Below, piece by piece: positions 4,071-22,608 of a stretch of 41,914 bases of DNA (position 1 is its first letter; each line of letters begins with the position of its first letter). Source of the stretch: a virus; the IMG/VR virus record IMGVR_UViG_3300037487_000675, positions 1 through 41,914 of that record. One strand, 5' to 3'. The position numbers and the translations under genes are program-made. The notes under the pieces were generated by a model. It did no database searches. It had not been told where the DNA came from and worked only from the letters and a program-made list of their open reading frames with translations.

Positions 4071-4248
4071 CGCTTTTGTCCTCCCCAGGTTGTTGCCTTA
4101 GAATGTGGTCAATTTCCTCGATGCCTTCCAGTTTGGTATTTATCTCCAGCATCTTTTTGCGTTGCCCGTAGGCCATGCCAAGGTTCTGCATCAGTACATA
4201 CCATTCGGCGCGTGCTTGATCGGTTAAGCAGTCCAGGAAGTCAGGCAA
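4057..4248 (-). CDS. Small helical hypothetical protein
   Basis: A 63-residue protein, MPDFLDCLTDQARAEWYVLM followed by a charged helical stretch (QRKKMLEINTKLEGIEEI), probably a coiled coil. It overlaps the methyltransferase upstream by eight bases and the next gene by 14. The N-terminal LTDQARAEWY motif also occurs at the start of some phage small terminases, but the terminase pair is elsewhere, so I leave it unnamed. Confidence 0.55.
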   Translation of the reverse strand: MPDFLDCLTDQARAEWYVLMQNLGMAYGQRKKMLEINTKLEGIEEIDHILRQQPGEDKSDANS

Positions 4249-5404
4249 TGTTCACCTTCATTGGTATGCTAATATACTGCATACGTTTCTTGATTATCTG
4301 ACAATACTTCGGGGATAACTCTATAAGCACCGCTTTGCGGCCTAAACGCTTGCTCACGGCCCCGGTTGTCCCTGTGCCTGCGAATGGATCAAGCACCACG
4401 CCCGGATCAAAGGATGCGCCGCAGCCGCAATCTGTATAACCAATATCCTCTCGCTTTGCAGGACTAACCATTGTCCCGCTTGATGCAGTTCTGTTGCCCG
4501 CAGATGCACCCCAATCAGTACGCTTGATAACCATGTTTTCAGTTTCGTATATCTTCTCCCTCGCCTTCCCGCACTTGGTACAGATAGCAGCCGGACACCC
4601 TGCTAATATCGGCGTTTCGCATAGCTTCTCAGGATAGGCAGCATAATGGTCTGACTTGCCGCTTTCCGTGGGGATATCCCATACACAGCGAGCGTTACGC
4701 AAGCCGTTGGTTGGAATTGTGGCAATCAACTCACCCGTCTCGGCCATACGCTTAAATGAGGATCCCGTCCTGGCGCCGTTGCTACCATCATCTGTCCGGC
4801 CTGCCCACCCATACCTGGCACGTTCTATTGTGGATTCCGTTTGCTTATCAAACTGCTGCTCAAAGAAATACTTACCCTGCTTGCTAAACATATACAGGTA
4901 TTCAAAGTCCTCAGTAAACCTATCCTTTACGCTTTCCGGCATTGGATTGCGCTTCCACCAGATGATTGTGTTGCGCCGGATAAAACCAAGTTGGTCCGTC
5001 ATAGCCAGGGCAAAGCGTTCGGGGATACCGATTAGGGATTTGGCGGGGATACCAACTGGCTTATTTTCCCATTCTCCTGATTGCCTTGTACTTGATTTAC
5101 TTATGCCCGTGTTTTTATCTCCATGATGAGTCCCACCACCCGCATAACTATCCGCTATATTCACCCAACAAGTGCCTGTCTTTTTAATCACCCGTTTAAC
5201 CTCATCAAATATCTGCATGAGGTGGTCGATATATTCTTGAAAGGTCTTTTCAAGGCCAATCTGCCCGTCAGCATGATAATCACGCAATCCCCAATAAGGC
5301 GGTGAAGTCATGCACATATCAACACTTTCATCCGGCATTGTTTTCAGTACCGATAACGCATCACCCTGCAAAAGTGATATGTGCGTATCCTGGTACTCAG
5401 GCAT
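4241..5404 (-). CDS. DNA methyltransferase, beta class (probable N4-cytosine or N6-adenine)
   Basis: A 387-residue AdoMet-dependent DNA amino-methyltransferase. Motif order is beta-class: the catalytic motif IV TSPPYWGLRD lies near the N-terminus (about residues 35-45) and motif I DPFAGTGTTG near the C-terminus. TSPPYW is the form often seen in N4-cytosine enzymes. The centre has a CTKCG...CGCG cluster that may bind zinc and a variable target-recognition region. ATG 5404 was chosen over one 14 codons upstream because GAGGAGG sits eight bases before it and it overlaps the small gene upstream. No cognate restriction enzyme is visible, so it probably protects phage DNA. Confidence 0.88.
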   Translation of the reverse strand: MPEYQDTHISLLQGDALSVLKTMPDESVDMCMTSPPYWGLRDYHADGQIGLEKTFQEYIDHLMQIFDEVKRVIKKTGTCWVNIADSYAGGGTHHGDKNTGISKSSTRQSGEWENKPVGIPAKSLIGIPERFALAMTDQLGFIRRNTIIWWKRNPMPESVKDRFTEDFEYLYMFSKQGKYFFEQQFDKQTESTIERARYGWAGRTDDGSNGARTGSSFKRMAETGELIATIPTNGLRNARCVWDIPTESGKSDHYAAYPEKLCETPILAGCPAAICTKCGKAREKIYETENMVIKRTDWGASAGNRTASSGTMVSPAKREDIGYTDCGCGASFDPGVVLDPFAGTGTTGAVSKRLGRKAVLIELSPKYCQIIKKRMQYISIPMKVNIA

Positions 5405-5549
5405 AGTCGGCCTCCTCCTCGATATCGTCCGCTTCACCCCATTCAACTAACTGCTCAACGTATCTCAGTAATATGCAGCAGTTACGGTGTGCGCTCCATG
5501 CTTGACAGCTTATCTCGCACTCTTTGTCCCTTAAAAAGCATTGCTTCAT
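5397..5549 (-). CDS. Cys-rich microprotein (50 aa)
   Basis: A 50-residue ORF filling the gap between two methyltransferase genes. AGGAAG lies about seven bases before ATG 5549, and the stop overlaps the next gene's start (ATGCCTGA). Five cysteines (positions 4, 11, 15, 24, 25) lie in the N-terminal half and a strongly acidic tail (WGEADDIEEEADYA) ends it. It may bind metal. Function unknown. Confidence 0.6.
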   Translation of the reverse strand: MKQCFLRDKECEISCQAWSAHRNCCILLRYVEQLVEWGEADDIEEEADYA

Positions 5550-5559
5550 GGTTTACTTC

Positions 5560-6234
5560 CTAAAGTGATAACTCCATAACTTCCTGAGAACATCTTTTAG
5601 CGGAAATCTCACAGTAGCGTTCTTCTATTTCGATGCCAATTGAATAGCGGTTGAGTTTCTTGGCAGCAAACAAGGTTGTTCCCGAACCAAAGAACGGGTC
5701 TAATACGGTGTTATTATTTGCCGTAGTGTCCAAAATTAACTCCTGCAATAATTCAATGGGCTTCTGTGTTGGGTGCTGCCTGTCCACGGGAGATGTATAT
5801 TCAAAGATATTATGTTTGTAATCAGGATTGTAGATTGCTTTAGGCAATTTGCCATACGCCATCAATTCAGTCGCTTCAATGTATAACTTATCGCAGTTTA
5901 TAATTGTGGGGTTGGGTTTATGCCAAATAAGAGTGCGTGTAGAAAAACCTAATAGAATCAACCATTTGATAAGGTCGCTAAATTGTGTTTTGTGGCAAAA
6001 CACAATTACTGATTGTTTGCTTTTCCCTACAAAGGCATCAAACCATTCTCGTTCTGTGCCTGCTTGCTTGTCCCATTCCCCATAATCCAAGTTTCGCAAG
6101 CCTGCTGATTTTTGGCTTATGTTGTAAGGTATGTCAGTCAATACCAAATCCACCTTAACATCAAGTGAAGGCAATATCTCACGGCAATCTCCATGATAAA
6201 TAGTTACCCACTTGTCCTTATAGTACGGATTCAC
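5560..6234 (-). CDS. DNA methyltransferase, beta class (DIPY variant)
   Basis: A 224-residue site-specific DNA methyltransferase. The catalytic motif reads TDIPYN (residues about 34-39), a known variant of DPPY, and motif I is DPFFGSGTT near the C-terminus, so the order is beta-class. The start is GTG 6234, overlapping the RusA gene by 17 bases. Its N- and C-terminal ends are almost the same, at DNA level too, as those of the enzyme at 39966-40565, while the centre (target recognition) differs. It probably modifies phage DNA against host restriction. Confidence 0.87.
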   Translation of the reverse strand: MNPYYKDKWVTIYHGDCREILPSLDVKVDLVLTDIPYNISQKSAGLRNLDYGEWDKQAGTEREWFDAFVGKSKQSVIVFCHKTQFSDLIKWLILLGFSTRTLIWHKPNPTIINCDKLYIEATELMAYGKLPKAIYNPDYKHNIFEYTSPVDRQHPTQKPIELLQELILDTTANNNTVLDPFFGSGTTLFAAKKLNRYSIGIEIEERYCEISAKRCSQEVMELSL

Positions 6235-6589: not shown

Positions 6590-7518
6590 TAAAATCCTAT
6601 CCCATCTTTCTTAAAATATAATTCTTCCGGTGGCCTTATGTTCACAAATTCCACACCGTTCACTAAATTGTATTTCCACTCTAAGCCGTGAGGGTTAATT
6701 CCGTCAAATTCCTTGACCTTGATAATTTTAAGTTTATTCTCAGGCACGTTGTCCATAATCAAATAAATACTCGCTCTATCTATTGTCGGCCTGCCTCCTA
6801 CCCCTAATTCAACTTCGTGTATTTTACCGCCCCAGTCCTTTTGTGCGCTCTTTTTCTGTATCAATATAAAGGCTATCCCCGTTTTTAATTTCATCCAAAT
6901 ATCTTTTATTTCATTACCTATCATGTAGGGCGTAGCATTGTCTACGTCTAAAAAGTCAATCACATTTATATCATCAGGAAAAACCACGTCAGCATAATTA
7001 TCGTATCTTTCATAGAACTTAAAACCGACAGAGATATCAGCGAAGTTAGGAACTTTCAACAATCGTCTTTTTAGCCGGCCTGGTGTTAATTCCGAACTGA
7101 AATAATGGCAAAGATGCTTCCATTGATTTAACATCAGGAAGTTAATTGCGAAGGCGCTTTTACCAGAGCCGGTTGATCCCGCTAATAGAATAATGCTCTT
7201 CGGCATCGTTAAAAACAACTTCTCCAAATGAAGGGGGTACTGGATATCCATACCACTTGCCACTTCCGCAGAGAGGATGTCGGATTCAACTAAAGCTGTA
7301 TTTGGTTTACGGAAGCGCCCATTGATATGCTTATCCTTTACCAACAGTCCCTTGTTAGAAAAGGCATGGCATTGTACGCGAATATTAGTCTTGTCTTTTT
7401 CGGAAGTAATAGCCAGCGCCCTGTAGATATCTTCCAGGTAAAACCAACCAGAACTTATCTCGATATAGTCATAGAGTTTGTTTGAAATGGGTGTCGTGTC
7501 ACTCGTATTCATTAACAT
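6589..7518 (-). CDS. RecA/DnaB-like P-loop ATPase, probable replication protein
   Basis: A 309-residue protein with an N-terminal winged-helix-like part (residues about 15-75) and a RecA-type ATPase domain: Walker A AGSTGSGKSAF near residue 113, Walker B INVIDFLDVD, and a later FILIQKK strand. This layout fits RepA/DnaB-like or loader ATPases in phage replication blocks. It is the only replication motor I can see; no polymerase or primase was recognised. The ATG at 7518 (or 7512) lies inside an array of TTAAC repeats and has no clear Shine-Dalgarno site. Confidence 0.7.
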   Translation of the reverse strand: MLMNTSDTTPISNKLYDYIEISSGWFYLEDIYRALAITSEKDKTNIRVQCHAFSNKGLLVKDKHINGRFRKPNTALVESDILSAEVASGMDIQYPLHLEKLFLTMPKSIILLAGSTGSGKSAFAINFLMLNQWKHLCHYFSSELTPGRLKRRLLKVPNFADISVGFKFYERYDNYADVVFPDDINVIDFLDVDNATPYMIGNEIKDIWMKLKTGIAFILIQKKSAQKDWGGKIHEVELGVGGRPTIDRASIYLIMDNVPENKLKIIKVKEFDGINPHGLEWKYNLVNGVEFVNIRPPEELYFKKDGIGF

Positions 7519-13831: not shown

Positions 13832-14655
13832 ATCTCTACTCGTATTCTTGGTTTACCTTCGCCTTTGAGCTTTATCTCGATAATGTTTAAACTGACCGGA
13901 TCATACCCGCCCCGCGCGGCATATCCTCCCCGCTTGAGGTACGCGCCGGTTTTGACCAGCTTCTTGTCTATGCTCATCATGCTGCCCACTTTGAAGCCGG
14001 TTGCTTTGTCGATGTACGTCCGGGCGTGAGGGGTTAAGAAAGCGCCCTCTTGAATACTGGCATCGTGGTCGTGGCTCATAATGTAAGCGTGGGCAAATAC
14101 CTGATGGCTGGTGCGCTCCACCTTGACATTCTTAGCGCCCTTTGTCCTGGCACCGCCGTAGCCATGCGTGGCATAGATAAAATATGAGTATGGTTGAGAT
14201 GGATGCCTCTCGTTACCACTGCCAAAACTAACCCTCAGTAGTATCTCTTCCGGGCCGTAGGGACAAGCTAAAGCCGATGCAATGTCCCTGCAGATGTCCA
14301 GGCCGGTCAGTTCAAATATCCTTGATTCATGGTTGCCGGAGGTCATGCCGAGCACCCGGCTTTTTATCGGTTCAAATGCCTCGATGATATAGTCACGTTG
14401 CTTTTGAGGTGTTGCGGTTTGGGAATACACATCGCCTTTGCTGGTTTTAAGCACACACTCACACAGATCCCCGTTGAGTATTGTGTAGATATTCGGTGAA
14501 GATTTGATGAAGTCTATGGTCTTTTGCAGGTGGTGCTTAGAAAACATCGGGTTCCCGTAGTGGACATCGCTGATAGGGACAATTATTACTTCTTTGAATT
14601 TGCTGGATAGGTCCTGGCAGTGATAGATAAGCTCGCCTGGTAAAATATCACTCAT
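13828..14655 (-). CDS. Calcineurin-like metallophosphoesterase
   Basis: A 275-residue protein with all the metal-binding motifs of the family in order: DVHYG (D-x-H, about residue 29), NGDLCE (G-D), GNHESR (G-N-H-E), and paired His in HGYGG and SHDHD. Phage members of this type are DNA exonuclease- or phosphatase-like and occur in replication or accessory blocks; the substrate here is not known. The start overlaps the upstream zinc-ribbon gene by eight bases. Confidence 0.88.
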   Translation of the reverse strand: MSDILPGELIYHCQDLSSKFKEVIIVPISDVHYGNPMFSKHHLQKTIDFIKSSPNIYTILNGDLCECVLKTSKGDVYSQTATPQKQRDYIIEAFEPIKSRVLGMTSGNHESRIFELTGLDICRDIASALACPYGPEEILLRVSFGSGNERHPSQPYSYFIYATHGYGGARTKGAKNVKVERTSHQVFAHAYIMSHDHDASIQEGAFLTPHARTYIDKATGFKVGSMMSIDKKLVKTGAYLKRGGYAARGGYDPVSLNIIEIKLKGEGKPRIRVEM

Positions 14656-15082: not shown

Positions 15083-15194
15083 GTTTCCTCCATGCTTCAC
15101 TGTATATCGTTCCAAGTTCCTTTGAGTGTACCTTGTAGCGCTTGGCCCGGCGTTTCTTTGTGCCTTCCCTGCGCTCGGCCTTTGTCTTTTTCAT
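15057..15194 (-). CDS. Highly basic microprotein (45 aa)
   Basis: A 45-residue ORF starting at ATG 15194 in an ATGA overlap with the gene upstream. About one residue in three is Lys or Arg (MKKTKAERREGTKKRRAKRY at the N-terminus), which suggests nucleic-acid binding. Function unknown. Confidence 0.55.
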   Translation of the reverse strand: MKKTKAERREGTKKRRAKRYKVHSKELGTIYSEAWRKRATQSTQQ

Positions 15195-15592
15195 TGGCTT
15201 TTCAGATAGGTTATTATCTTTCCATACGCTTCAAACCACCGGGCGTTCCAGTTGACGGTGTTATAGTCCGTGGCATCGCTACCCGCGTGACTGGCCTGCG
15301 CTTTGTATAACAACTGTATGCACTCCTCTTTAGAGAGTTTGCACGGCTCCCGCTTTATCCTGGCTATTATCTCGGTGAAGTCATCCACCCATTGCGTGTG
15401 ACTTTTCCAGGTGCCTGTATCGTTGTCCTCTGGCAGGTAGATGTACGTCTCGTGAATATCCCGGTCCCATTCCAACCACCAGATACAGTCAGCCTGGGTG
15501 AAGTCCGATAGAGGAGATGGCATTTGCAATATCGCTATAACTATTAACAGCACCGCCGCGAAGAGACAGGCAAAGAAGTAAGTATTTTTCAT
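15191..15592 (-). CDS. Exported or membrane-anchored hypothetical protein
   Basis: A 133-residue protein with an N-terminal hydrophobic segment (FFACLFAAVLLIVIAILQ, about residues 5-23) and a soluble remainder rich in W and acidic residues. The part HTQWVDDFTEIIARI and the ending WNARWFEAYGKII recall the KTDKEWVxW family at 2774-3873, weakly. Two 20-bp tandem repeats lie directly upstream (15599-15638). No ribosome site of note was seen before ATG 15592. Confidence 0.6.
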   Translation of the reverse strand: MKNTYFFACLFAAVLLIVIAILQMPSPLSDFTQADCIWWLEWDRDIHETYIYLPEDNDTGTWKSHTQWVDDFTEIIARIKREPCKLSKEECIQLLYKAQASHAGSDATDYNTVNWNARWFEAYGKIITYLKSQ

Positions 15593-15598
15593 AGTTAA

Positions 15599-15638
15599 TG
15601 TCCATTAAATTGAGCGCGTGTCCATTTATTTGAGCGTC
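15599..15638. repeat. Two tandem 20-bp repeats
   Basis: Read on the plus strand, 15599-15618 is TGTCCATTAAATTGAGCGCG and 15619-15638 is TGTCCATTTATTTGAGCGTC, 16 of 20 positions alike. They end seven bases before the ATG at 15592 (minus strand), where an operator would sit. The look is also like the repeated ends of some IS21-type elements, but no transposase or second end was found. Confidence 0.55.
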
Positions 15639-15724
15639 CCATCGGTGAGCCACTACGAACTTAGCGTCTCATATTACGGCATTTTCGCCATAATTAGTGC
15701 CAGGATAGTATGGTTGCTGCTCAT

Positions 15725-16843
15725 CGTTATATTGCAGAGGATGTAATTTTCCACTGCAACCGTAGAATTGCATTGCGAATATAACGCTATAGCCTTATTT
15801 TCAGCGATTATAAGGTTTCAGCAAACGCTGAATGTTTAGTGCGCAGTAAACACTTGTTGATAAGTGGTGATGGTTTGTCCGTTCCATGACACACGCAACA
15901 CGTTTGTTAGTGAAACAGTTTTCGTGAACAGGGGGACAGGTTGTCCCCTTGAACCGGTAAGCCGGGCTTGCAAGTTAGCCTATGCTTAACCGCTCAAGCA
16001 TTTTGTCATTAGTTTGTTATGGAAAGTGTTACAATTTGTCACGGGTTGAACTGGTACTTACAAGTTGTCTATCATCTCAAAACGTGACCTTAAAGGTTGC
16101 AGTTGTTACCTTAGATGTCACGACCTTGTCACATAAAATACTACGAAAGTGTGACAGCAAACGGGAGGGGCTTAAAAGCATTCGCTTTTGGTTTACCCTC
16201 CCGCCGCCGTTGAGGAACCGCCTGCCTGGGGATATACGGTGCAAAACCTTAAACCCCCAGGACTTACGGCAGAAATTCATATCGGTTCGGGGTGAATTTC
16301 GCATCATGCACCTGAGTGGTGATACCCCGATAGTTTCAAATGACACCGACATTAAAATGCAACGGGCGGCCCTACCATAGGTTGCGGCCAGCTCTAATGA
16401 CCGCCCGAAGTTGCTTTTCTACACTTACGTTCTTACGAACTGGCAGATAGCACAAAATACGACCGCCCCAGAAGTGACGCTCATGTTTCAGAGCCTCCCT
16501 TCGGGGCGGCCTCCATCGCGGGGCGTGAGTCACAGCGTCCTGTCTCCGTTACCCGCTGGCGGCGCAGACTCCTGCGCCCATTAGCCGCAGATACTATCGG
16601 CGGCGTTGTGTGGACTGCGCTATACGCAAATTATGACACGAACGGCTACTAACCGCCATGCCTAACGACCGTGGTGGCGGTGCGTATTTTCACGGCAGAT
16701 TCAAAACACGGGGGAGTTGGCTTTCCTTATCCCGTGTCGCCCACCATCTGTTGTCAGAGCCAACCGACACGCAGTCCGTTGCCGGGCATTGACCCGACCC
16801 ATACAGTCCTGGGCCTTCTATTCCCAGGACATAGATTAGAAGG
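15725..16843. ncRNA. Candidate giant structured RNA (about 1.1 kb hairpin-dense, non-coding)
   Basis: The whole gap 15593-16843 has no protein-like frame with a ribosome site. From 15725 on it is packed with perfect helices (plus coordinates): 15725-33/15778-86; 15793-98/15810-15; 15817-22/15827-32; 15833-38/15847-52; 15932-38/15942-48; 16083-88/16117-22 enclosing 16093-97/16108-12; 16127-33/16150-56; 16162-69/16196-203 enclosing 16174-79/16184-89; 16226-31/16255-60; 16272-79/16293-300; 16363-69/16401-07; 16463-69/16503-09; 16561-67/16572-78; 16622-28/16681-87 enclosing 16653-58/16675-80; 16706-12/16731-37; 16806-13/16823-30. Three loops pair with downstream sequence as pseudoknots (15800-06/15826-32, 16716-22/16758-64, 16814-20/16837-43). 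Strand is uncertain: a C(UUCG)G loop at 16499-16504 and a G-U pair favour plus, the gene order favours minus. Size and phage context recall GOLLD and ROOL RNAs. Confidence 0.65.
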
Positions 16844-17407
16844 CTATTTGAATGTCCCAATTTCCTCGATGGTTTTCTGTGCCGGCCGGTATATTCTACC
16901 AACCTCGACAACTTCGATGGTATCATACCGCGGCTCGATGTAGACTATCGTGCCATCTTTCAAAGGAAAGGCAACGACAGCGTGGGAACCGCCTTCGGCA
17001 AAGTTCATCACTACGCCATAGGCATCCCAATCGTATGACCTTGCCGATGCGGTTAGACATTCGGCGCGAGCCAGGCAACTATCCTCTGGTTCATAGACTG
17101 CCGATGTACACCTGTCACACTGGTCGAGTTTCAAGAAGGCTGCCAGTTTATCCTTTGTTATCAGGTTGAGTTCAACGTCTGCCCGTGGCACAACTTCTGC
17201 CTTTGCTTTAGCGTATCCGTTGGCGTATCCCTCTGTGCAGCATTGATCCATTGTTTTCTGCAACATATCAGGGGTCATGCAGATTGCGCCGTTTTCAGGC
17301 TTCTCAGGGGGCATACAGCTAAGTGCAAGGACAAGCATCAGCAACAGAAAGGCGGCAGTCCAGAAAAGCAGGAACTTACCGAAGCCATCCACCTTGCCGT
17401 CCTCCAT
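16844..17407 (-). CDS. Membrane- or lipid-anchored protein with possible transglutaminase-like domain
   Basis: A 187-residue protein with an N-terminal membrane segment (residues about 11-30) ending in ALSC, a marginal lipobox. The C-terminal half has a conserved-looking Cys (SCLARAECLTASARSYDWDAYGV), then GGSHAVVAFPLKDGTIVYIEPRYD. A Cys followed by H-A-x-V and D/E-P is the order seen in transglutaminase- or papain-like phage proteins. It lies in the presumed lysis block, so a cell-envelope role is possible. Its stop directly abuts the structured region. Confidence 0.5.
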   Translation of the reverse strand: MEDGKVDGFGKFLLFWTAAFLLLMLVLALSCMPPEKPENGAICMTPDMLQKTMDQCCTEGYANGYAKAKAEVVPRADVELNLITKDKLAAFLKLDQCDRCTSAVYEPEDSCLARAECLTASARSYDWDAYGVVMNFAEGGSHAVVAFPLKDGTIVYIEPRYDTIEVVEVGRIYRPAQKTIEEIGTFK

Positions 17408-20316: not shown

Positions 20317-22608
20317 TTACACTCCTACCCATTGAAGTATTTTTACATAGTGCAATTCAATGTCTGTTGCTAACGTAGTCAACAAAGCGGCAGTTTCGGC
20401 GGCAGTCTTTCCTTCAATGCCGTTAGCCGTGGCATAACAGAAATCGTTATCTTCAAGTGTGCCGTCAACTTGTAGAACATTATCATCGGCAATACCCAAA
20501 GCAATACCATCAATAGCACCGCCTGTTAATCTGCCGACTACTTCCTGTGCGTTGACTGTCAAGGCTACTGGCGTATCATCTGTGGTAGCCATCAGGATTG
20601 AATAGGCATCATAAAGGCTTCGTGGTACAAGTCCTGATGTGTCGGTTGACGTTGCTGCACCGCCACCCGAAGTTATACGGCCTCGTAAATCTTTCCAATA
20701 CAATCCAGTATCAAATGTCTGAAACTCGTTGTCGTTATCTTCGCTGATTATTGTACGGGCAATCGGCAGGAATACCTTTTTAAGTTCGCTATCAGGTGGA
20801 AAGTAATTAGTAGCATCGTATAAATCCTGTCGTGCTAAAGCAAGTGTTGAGTAATTAACTGTCGGGTCGGTTTGAAGGACAGCGATTAGCTTAACAGTTG
20901 TGGGTAAGGTTCCGCTTGCCGTTGTGGTAGTAGGTACTATTCCCCACACGATATTGGCAAACTCATGGTTGCCGACTGCCGTGCCGTCATTATAAAACTT
21001 CAGGTCGGTTAATGCCGTGCCTGCGAACCAGTTATATACCCCTGCAACTTGCTTCATATAATAGAAAGCTGCTGAAGTTACGGTATTGGCTGCCTCCAAC
21101 GGGAATATGCCCTGTAACCATTTACCACCTGAAGCCACGCTGATTGAACCGATTAATACAGTCGGCAAAGCACCACTATCATAAAGAGTACCTGCCAGGA
21201 TTGCCCTGTTGATTGTTCTGTTAATCATCGTATCGACTTCCCGCCTGTTGCGATGATAGGAATAGATTGTGTAATTGGCACCTGCTACAGCACCCACGAT
21301 AAATGTTGCCACCCTGATATGTACACCTGTAGGTTCGGCATCAAGGGAAACCGCTAAAGTAGGCACGTCAGCCACCAGGTAAAAGTAAACATAATTTGTT
21401 TTAGGTACTGCATCCGTACCGCCTGTCAGGGCGATTGATGCGCTTGCCACGGCAGCAGGATAAACAACGCCGTTAAAGTTCCACGTTCCCGTACCATAAT
21501 AAGCATACAAGGTATAGGTCAGTACACCGCCCGTACAGGACAATGTAGAACGGCTCTTATCCAGCAAAGTATCGGTTGCCATTTCGGACAGATGCCGTGT
21601 CATGTGGCTTAATCGGTTGGAATGACCACGGCTATCATAGTGCAGGATATCGCCTTCAACGGTTATCTCGCCACCCGTATATTCCTTGACGGACACATCA
21701 CTTATTACGCCTGCAAATGTGGCATCAGGAGTGAATATCAGGTTGCCCGTGGTGAACGGGTTGACATAGCGCATGATGGTCTGGTCGCCTGAACACACAG
21801 ACGATACCACACCGCCAAGGGTCATTGTTATTGTGCCTGCGGTATAAGACGATATGGTAAATGATACCTTGTAAGTCTTGGCAACGTCAGGAACGATTGC
21901 GGAAGTCGGGACAAGAGTTGTAGATGCAGCAGCCACACGGGTAGCGATGCCAGTTAAATCGGTGATGGTCCAGCCTGCGCCCTCTGTCCATAAAAGCTGT
22001 GTCATGGCCGGGGCAAGTTCTGTGCCGAGGTCGATGGTGAGGTCGGATTCTTTCAGATATTGGGTATGGTCGTCATCCAGCAATCCGGTAAGGGCAAGCC
22101 CGTGGTCTAATTGCCCAGCTTGTGCGCCGGCTGATTGATGCGTATGGTCAGCAGATTCCAGACGATAGCCGGTATGCGGGTCGGCAGCCGCAGCATGGGC
22201 GGCCAGGCCACCTCCAATGACTATCCAATTAGTCCCGTTGTGCTGCAGTAAACAGTATTTATCCGTGCTGTCCAGGGAGATATCGTCGCCCGCCGGGTTG
22301 ATTATATTGCCCGCGCCCGTATCAATTACCACTGTCCTGTCGGTGTGCGCCGCCCTTAATAAAATAACCTCGCCCTCGGCTCCGCCCGAGATCGTCACCA
22401 GGTTGTCAGAGGCCGCGTCCTCAAACGTATCGACGGTGTGGTGCGAGTAGGTCTTAGTAATAATGCCGTTGGTGTCTAACGTCAGTTCAACGGCGGCCTC
22501 CAACGCGATATTGGTTTTCAGGAAGTTGAGGTTGTCGCGCACCTGGGCGTTCATGTCGGTTGACGTTAAGACTTCTGCGGACCAAGTGCGGGGTGTCGTC
22601 CAGCTCAT
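20317..22608 (-). CDS. Large tail fibre/baseplate protein
   Basis: A 763-residue protein, the largest of the tail-fibre group. The N-terminus (SWTTPRTWSAEVLTSTDMNAQVRDNLNFL) is the motif with which many phage distal tail proteins begin. Then come a beta-rich part, a His-rich linker (HAAAADPHTGYRLESADHTH) and a repeat-poor, Thr/Ala/Gly-rich C-terminal half. It probably attaches to the tail tip and carries receptor contacts. Confidence 0.75.
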   Translation of the reverse strand: MSWTTPRTWSAEVLTSTDMNAQVRDNLNFLKTNIALEAAVELTLDTNGIITKTYSHHTVDTFEDAASDNLVTISGGAEGEVILLRAAHTDRTVVIDTGAGNIINPAGDDISLDSTDKYCLLQHNGTNWIVIGGGLAAHAAAADPHTGYRLESADHTHQSAGAQAGQLDHGLALTGLLDDDHTQYLKESDLTIDLGTELAPAMTQLLWTEGAGWTITDLTGIATRVAAASTTLVPTSAIVPDVAKTYKVSFTISSYTAGTITMTLGGVVSSVCSGDQTIMRYVNPFTTGNLIFTPDATFAGVISDVSVKEYTGGEITVEGDILHYDSRGHSNRLSHMTRHLSEMATDTLLDKSRSTLSCTGGVLTYTLYAYYGTGTWNFNGVVYPAAVASASIALTGGTDAVPKTNYVYFYLVADVPTLAVSLDAEPTGVHIRVATFIVGAVAGANYTIYSYHRNRREVDTMINRTINRAILAGTLYDSGALPTVLIGSISVASGGKWLQGIFPLEAANTVTSAAFYYMKQVAGVYNWFAGTALTDLKFYNDGTAVGNHEFANIVWGIVPTTTTASGTLPTTVKLIAVLQTDPTVNYSTLALARQDLYDATNYFPPDSELKKVFLPIARTIISEDNDNEFQTFDTGLYWKDLRGRITSGGGAATSTDTSGLVPRSLYDAYSILMATTDDTPVALTVNAQEVVGRLTGGAIDGIALGIADDNVLQVDGTLEDNDFCYATANGIEGKTAAETAALLTTLATDIELHYVKILQWVGV

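Follow-up and report, generated by a model that had tools for sequence, protein, structure and literature searches.

GOLLD and ROOL are large, ornate non-coding RNAs borne by phages; GOLLD includes a variable part, and its linker can carry tRNAs (PMC12286853). Phage RNAs that imitate the antitoxins of host defence systems are exemplified by the pseudo-ToxI repeats of phage PhiTE, which mimic a type III RNA antitoxin acting against the toxin ToxN and constitute a tested precedent (PMC3475682). In C. difficile, abiF motifs form an RNA antitoxin that neutralises the AbiF toxin through direct binding, and AbiF has itself been tied to the origin of Cas13 (PMC12373285). The phage locus described here belongs to no described family and combines two of these known kinds, the ornate phage RNA and phage RNA antitoxin mimicry. 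Like GOLLD, it is large, ornate, phage-borne, equipped with pseudoknots and endowed with a variable part, but it shows neither a sequence nor a covariance match to GOLLD and has no adjoining tRNA island; proximity to such an island is frequent though not universal for GOLLD, and no tRNA was found in the window, by which we mean the whole stretch of 41,914 nt that was analysed. With ROOL the locus shares its size, its ornateness and its occurrence in a phage, but it gives no covariance match and its length varies about twofold among close relatives. The resemblance to PhiTE lies in an antitoxin-resembling phage non-coding RNA that evolves via recombination and repeat change; the PhiTE array, however, consists of simple repeats of one antitoxin and has been tested, whereas here we find a mosaic of different structures in which the sole recognised module, a putative antitoxin mimic, sits in a relative (L003).

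The locus was found in the virus record IMGVR_UViG_3300037487_000675 (41.9 kb), nearly all genes of which are encoded on the minus strand and in which portal, tape-measure and other head and tail genes were recognised. A gene-free gap of 1251 nt (15593-16843) lies exactly between the minus-strand genes 15191-15592 and 16844-17407, with structural genes on one side and a module containing an exonuclease gene on the other (Table 1). Frames within the gap reach 132 codons, their tblastn matches coincided with conserved RNA blocks, and no intact counterpart is kept in the relatives. Protein coding was rejected on account of these broken frames, in agreement with the preliminary description of this DNA, which had seen no protein-like frame. 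Scanning the region revealed no convincing minus-strand promoter or terminator at a suitable place, and no GC-skew switch was detected at 15593-16843. The cluster of TGTCAC/GTGACA motifs is a possible protein site or helix; related motifs also occur within the gaps of both relatives. Elsewhere in the window, two adjacent N6/N4 DNA methyltransferase genes are located at 4241-5446 and 5560-6234, and a 763-aa protein without known family (20317-22608) contains a stretch, residues ~135-190, that is 35-86% identical to proteins of many otherwise unrelated viral contigs and resembles an exchangeable tail domain.

Table 1. Features of the structured region and its flanks (window coordinates), and abiF RNAs in phage isolates (coordinates of the respective records).
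Feature	Position	Strand	Remarks
Whole non-coding structured region	15593..16843	- (most likely the sense strand)	Flanked by two co-directional genes
Upstream flanking gene, 187 aa	16844..17407	-	Without known family; L002 and L003 have orthologues adjoining the gap
Downstream flanking gene, 133 aa	15191..15592	-	Without known family; L002 and L003 have orthologues
5' block	16506..16843	-	98% identical to L002; divergent beyond, recombination boundary near 16505
P1 stem GCCTTCTA/TAGAAGGC	16813..16844	-	Begins within the upstream gene's stop codon; L003 has compensatory changes (GCCTTCCT/AGGAAGGC)
PK1 pseudoknot GTCCTGG/CCAGGAC	16806..16830	-	P1 loop pairs with bases after P1
Perfect hairpin GGCGCAG-GAGT-CTGCGCC	16561..16578	-	
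51-nt hairpin module (CCTGGGG...CCCCAGG)	16220..16270	-	94% identical to L003; position in the array differs
Hairpin GCGGGAGGG/CCCTCCCGU	16161..16204	-	Follows shared GGCGGTTCCTCAACGGCGG; G-C to U-A in L003 (GCGGGAGGT/ACCTCCCGC)
Four TGTCAC/GTGACA motifs in 120 bp	16037..16156	unassigned	Include hairpin TGTCACA/TGTGACA
Short hairpin AACTTGTA/TACCAGTT	16049..16066	-	Counterpart in L003 is longer
Hairpin GGGGACA/TGTCCCC	15931..15949	-	Preserved in L003
Terminal-domain stem CGTTATATT/AATATAACG	15725..15786	-	L003 counterpart has a U-G pair
Two near-repeats CGCTCAAATAAATGGACA / CGCTCAATTTAATGGACA	15593..15637	-	Abut the downstream gene; identical in L003
Unannotated abiF RNA, Redno2	L180:1501-1537		
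Unannotated abiF RNA, PZL-Ah8	L181:1504-1540		
Unannotated abiF RNA, S-SRM01	L183:1501-1537		

Perfect helices of at least 7 bp numbered 18 in the region, as against 3.6 ± 1.9 (maximum 9) in shuffled sequences and a maximum of 7 in other segments of the genome. Lowering the limit to 6 bp, with up to 60 nt allowed in the loop, gave 33 helices in the gap, compared to 13.5 ± 3.9 in 300 shuffles (maximum 26) and a mean of 12 (maximum 20) in other segments. When an H-type pseudoknot was defined as a 5-bp stem plus a 6-bp loop pairing, the region contained 7, versus 1.4 in shuffles (maximum 4), and the genome tile covering it contained 8, the other 1.25-kb tiles ranging from 0 to 5. Folding-energy z-scores on the minus strand were -4.6 for the first 700 nt and -3.6 for the rest, most other tested stretches of the genome being close to 0, and the corresponding gaps of the relatives L002 and L003 scored -4.1 and -6.9. 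Helices, pseudoknots and folding z-scores therefore confirmed the dense structure of perfect helices and pseudoknots that the preliminary description had reported, and nothing similar was seen elsewhere in the genome. Its leaning towards the plus strand is not favoured by the data. The minimum energy was lower on the minus strand, on which the centroid was also much better defined (-423 versus -312 kcal/mol on the plus strand), the z-score of the region was better on minus than on plus, and the relatives differ by three pair changes of wobble type that give G-U only if minus is read. Because these observations agree with one another and with the direction of nearly all genes, the minus strand is most likely the sense strand; some doubt remains, since for the L002 gap alone the antisense z-score was slightly better (-4.7) than the sense one (-4.1).

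The structured RNA had been proposed to be one of the GOLLD/ROOL classes or a new one. No Rfam family reached threshold in the window gap with cmscan. The covariance model of GOLLD (RF02032) gave no match at E values up to 10 in the records of the window, L002 and L003, and that of ROOL (RF03087) gave none up to the same value in the window or its relatives, although this model was equally silent in control genomes. GOLLD, ROOL and the other Rfam families were consequently rejected as the identity of the locus, given the absence of covariance matches. What stands of the proposal is that the RNA is structured; it is a new class only in the narrow sense of being covered by no described family, with just three members in the data searched.

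Only two relatives, L002 and L003, both from metagenome 3300037042, were found among the 2.9 million viral contigs searched, which brings the known members to three, no fewer than two of which share a metagenome. Neither an alignment of the flanking protein nor the exonuclease or the 763-aa protein, used as queries, led to further syntenic relatives, and phage and plasmid records contained no direct DNA homologues of the region. The sole match of the L003 gap in the phage collection was a 29-nt stretch (E = 0.05), and the window region gave only matches of ~20-45 nt, at chance level, in 296 genomes belonging to the same phylum as the Bacteroidetes MAG mentioned below. In L002 and L003 the gaps occupy the same place between the same neighbours but measure about 680 and 560 nt, so that the locus ranges from 560 to 1251 nt among close relatives; the upstream protein is 99% identical to that of L002 and 72-74% identical to that of L003. 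By local alignment, the region shares its first 340-355 nt with L002 at 98% identity, beyond which only scattered blocks of similarity to L002 remain; its final 45 nt match L003 exactly. The order of two elements is reversed between the window and L002. The 51-nt hairpin, present among viral contigs only in L003 and absent from genome contigs and from 395 genomes (up to 3 mismatches), adjoins the 5' stem in L003 and is fused to the shared GGCGGTTCCTC element in the window; a deletion between short TGGC matches could have turned an L003-like layout into that of the window at this point, with loss of the abiF module described below. The region is thus a mosaic, the elements of which have been gained, lost and moved between relatives. 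A recombination boundary was noted within the RNA region at window position 16505, upstream of which the sequence is almost identical to L002 and downstream of which it is nearer to L003.

Pairing was retained in several elements despite sequence change. P1 of L003 departs from that of the window at two pairs, neither of which is broken; PK1 reads GGTGCC/GGCACC in L003, nearly every pair having been replaced relative to the window with pairing preserved, and in L002 one PK1 pair is broken. Shuffling the same 80 nt 20,000 times produced a comparable pseudoknot at the 5' end only 7 (window) and 49 (L003) times. One additional double change that keeps pairing was found in the GCGGGAGG hairpin. 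Compensatory changes in P1, PK1 and the GCGGGAGG hairpin thus support a structured RNA, within the limited depth afforded by three sequences, which falls short of the covariation test among homologues proposed in the preliminary description.

The L003 gap contains a match to the abiF RNA (RF03085) at 6721-6758, in sense with the genes, which scored 31.2 bits (gathering score 37), with an E value of 0.0013 against all of Rfam and of 8e-6 for the L003 record alone. No abiF motif was found in the window gap at E values up to 10, and elsewhere in that genome there was only a 13-bit match. The 22-nt core ACGCCTCTCGAAGAAGCGCAAC is exactly the same in L003, in an unrelated phage contig from another metagenome (L009), where it lies within a tRNA array at 14233-14268 and has a different outer stem, and in a Bacteroidetes (L044) and an Ignavibacteria (L043) MAG. 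Both MAGs carry a full abiF RNA (47.6 bits) with outer stems that differ from that of L003; in L044 it immediately precedes an Abi_2 gene (PF07751, E = 6e-56), and in L043 a similar frame downstream of it is interrupted by stops. These were the only genuine abiF RNAs among nine genome matches to the core. The other seven fell below the model threshold and are probably due to chance or perhaps to coding, as the core can encode PLEEAQ. Abi_2 genes were absent from the window record and from those of L002, L003 and L009. The L003 module has the identical core and the same hairpin layout as the abiF RNA, but its outer stem differs, its score stays below gathering and the toxin gene is missing. A toxin-less antitoxin in a phage fits the expected look of an inhibitor of the abiF defence, the missing Abi_2 gene being what would be expected of a mimic, unlike a complete system.

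We tentatively favour, with somewhat less than even confidence, the interpretation of the locus as a mosaic of RNA modules, at least some of which would disarm RNA-controlled host defences. The predicted transcript would run on the minus strand with the surrounding genes, starting from the stop codon of the 187-aa gene, and its small hairpin and pseudoknot modules would be gained, lost and reordered among related phages by recombination. Acting as decoys or antitoxins, the module RNAs would bind host defence toxins that are under RNA control, the AbiF (Abi_2) protein among them, and silence them; the L003 module would be an abiF antitoxin mimic carried without the AbiF toxin gene, and the window's own modules would serve targets other than AbiF. 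Structure, minus-strand bias, mosaic evolution, the abiF core of L003 and the absence of the toxin gene were all observed; from them we infer that the region is transcribed, that its modules bind toxins and counter defence, and that what holds for L003 extends to the modules of the window. Against this interpretation counts the fact that no window module could be traced to any bacterial antitoxin in the phages, plasmids and genomes searched, as do the lack of an abiF motif in the window, the L003 score below gathering, the lack of a recognisable minus-strand promoter and the small number of members.

A close rival of the module array is a single ornate RNA with variable insertions. According to this possible, if rather doubtful, explanation, one large phage RNA would fold as a whole into a scaffold or nanocage of the GOLLD/ROOL type, unrelated to these in sequence, and abiF would be an insertion into a variable arm in L003. 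The 5' P1/PK1 unit, the middle element GGCGGTTCCTC and the 3' elements are common to all or most members, pseudoknots are numerous, and GOLLD too has a variable part (PMC12286853); indeed, the scaffold-like appearance of P1/PK1 and of the common 3' elements is as compatible with one coherent RNA as with an array. This has to be set against the unmatched GOLLD and ROOL models, the lack of tRNAs nearby, the length spread among close relatives and a module that shifts position. As the relatives show elements gained, lost and moved, an array of modules fits at least as well as the one continuous giant RNA envisaged in the preliminary description. A cis-acting transcript region, in which the RNA would be processed, stabilised as a 3' UTR or used to control the genes downstream, appears improbable: P1 does begin in the upstream stop codon, and the location between the structural genes and the exonuclease module would suit such a role, but 1.2 kb with many pseudoknots far exceeds what processing needs, and the trans-acting antitoxin core of L003 would be left unexplained. 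We consider even less probable an element acting at the DNA level, such as a replication origin or a recombination site with hairpins and protein sites, for which the four TGTCAC motifs in 120 bp, the near-repeats at the 3' end and the internal mosaic boundary could be invoked, but which is at odds with wobble-type changes that fit one strand only, with the absent GC-skew switch and with the abiF RNA of L003. Functionless debris of decay or mobile elements would account for the rapid turnover of content but is very improbable given the great excess of perfect helices and the compensatory changes, and 1.2 kb of debris is rarely kept in compact phage genomes.

Returning to the counter-defence interpretation, abiF hairpins detached from any toxin gene proved frequent in other phages. 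A degenerate pattern of the abiF core matched at least 120 viral contigs (L060-L179). Among the matches listed, an outer stem of 5 bp or more closes 109 of the 120 core copies. A tRNA is found no more than 200 nt from 63 of these 109 stem-bearing copies, mostly at a distance of 13-19 nt, as compared to 15% of random positions in the same stretches. RF03085 matched 36 of the 42 larger records, in 30 of them above the curated score, and none of the 42 contained an Abi_2 gene. The loops of these orphan hairpins are constant, as is partly demanded by the pattern, and the stems vary yet stay paired. Scores above the curated one were also obtained in three isolates, Mycobacterium phage Redno2, Aeromonas phage PZL-Ah8, in which the RNA lies between the connector and capsid assembly genes, and Synechococcus phage S-SRM01. 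In cyanophage S-CREM1 an abiF hairpin has been annotated between two tRNAs, its role being left open by the authors and by a later review. The S-CREM1 array (L182:718-1540) intersperses wcaG, manA and abiF RNAs among its tRNAs; wcaG and manA, which are regarded as cis-regulators, might be trans-acting there. In the open-access literature searched we found no paper tying phage abiF RNAs to counter-defence.

In a broader and rather unlikely reading, the locus would be a multi-target counter-defence array: each recombining RNA mimic would disarm a different toxin under RNA control, abiF being the first recognised, and the modules of the window would correspond to as yet undescribed defence RNAs. 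The array would then be one case of a wider strategy, given that many tRNA arrays of phages contain abiF hairpins of the orphan type.

Very few phage RNA inhibitors of toxins are known, and a locus of module turnover among sister phages that includes an exact copy of an antitoxin core offers a route both to such inhibitors and to the matching defence systems. The frequency of orphan abiF hairpins in phage tRNA arrays is maybe a weightier result than the locus itself. Given the connection of AbiF with the origin of Cas13 (PMC12373285), the abiF RNAs of phages could act as naturally occurring inhibitors of that lineage. The presence of the hairpin in named, culturable phages, such as Redno2 on M. 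smegmatis mc2 155, makes the counter-defence idea directly testable.
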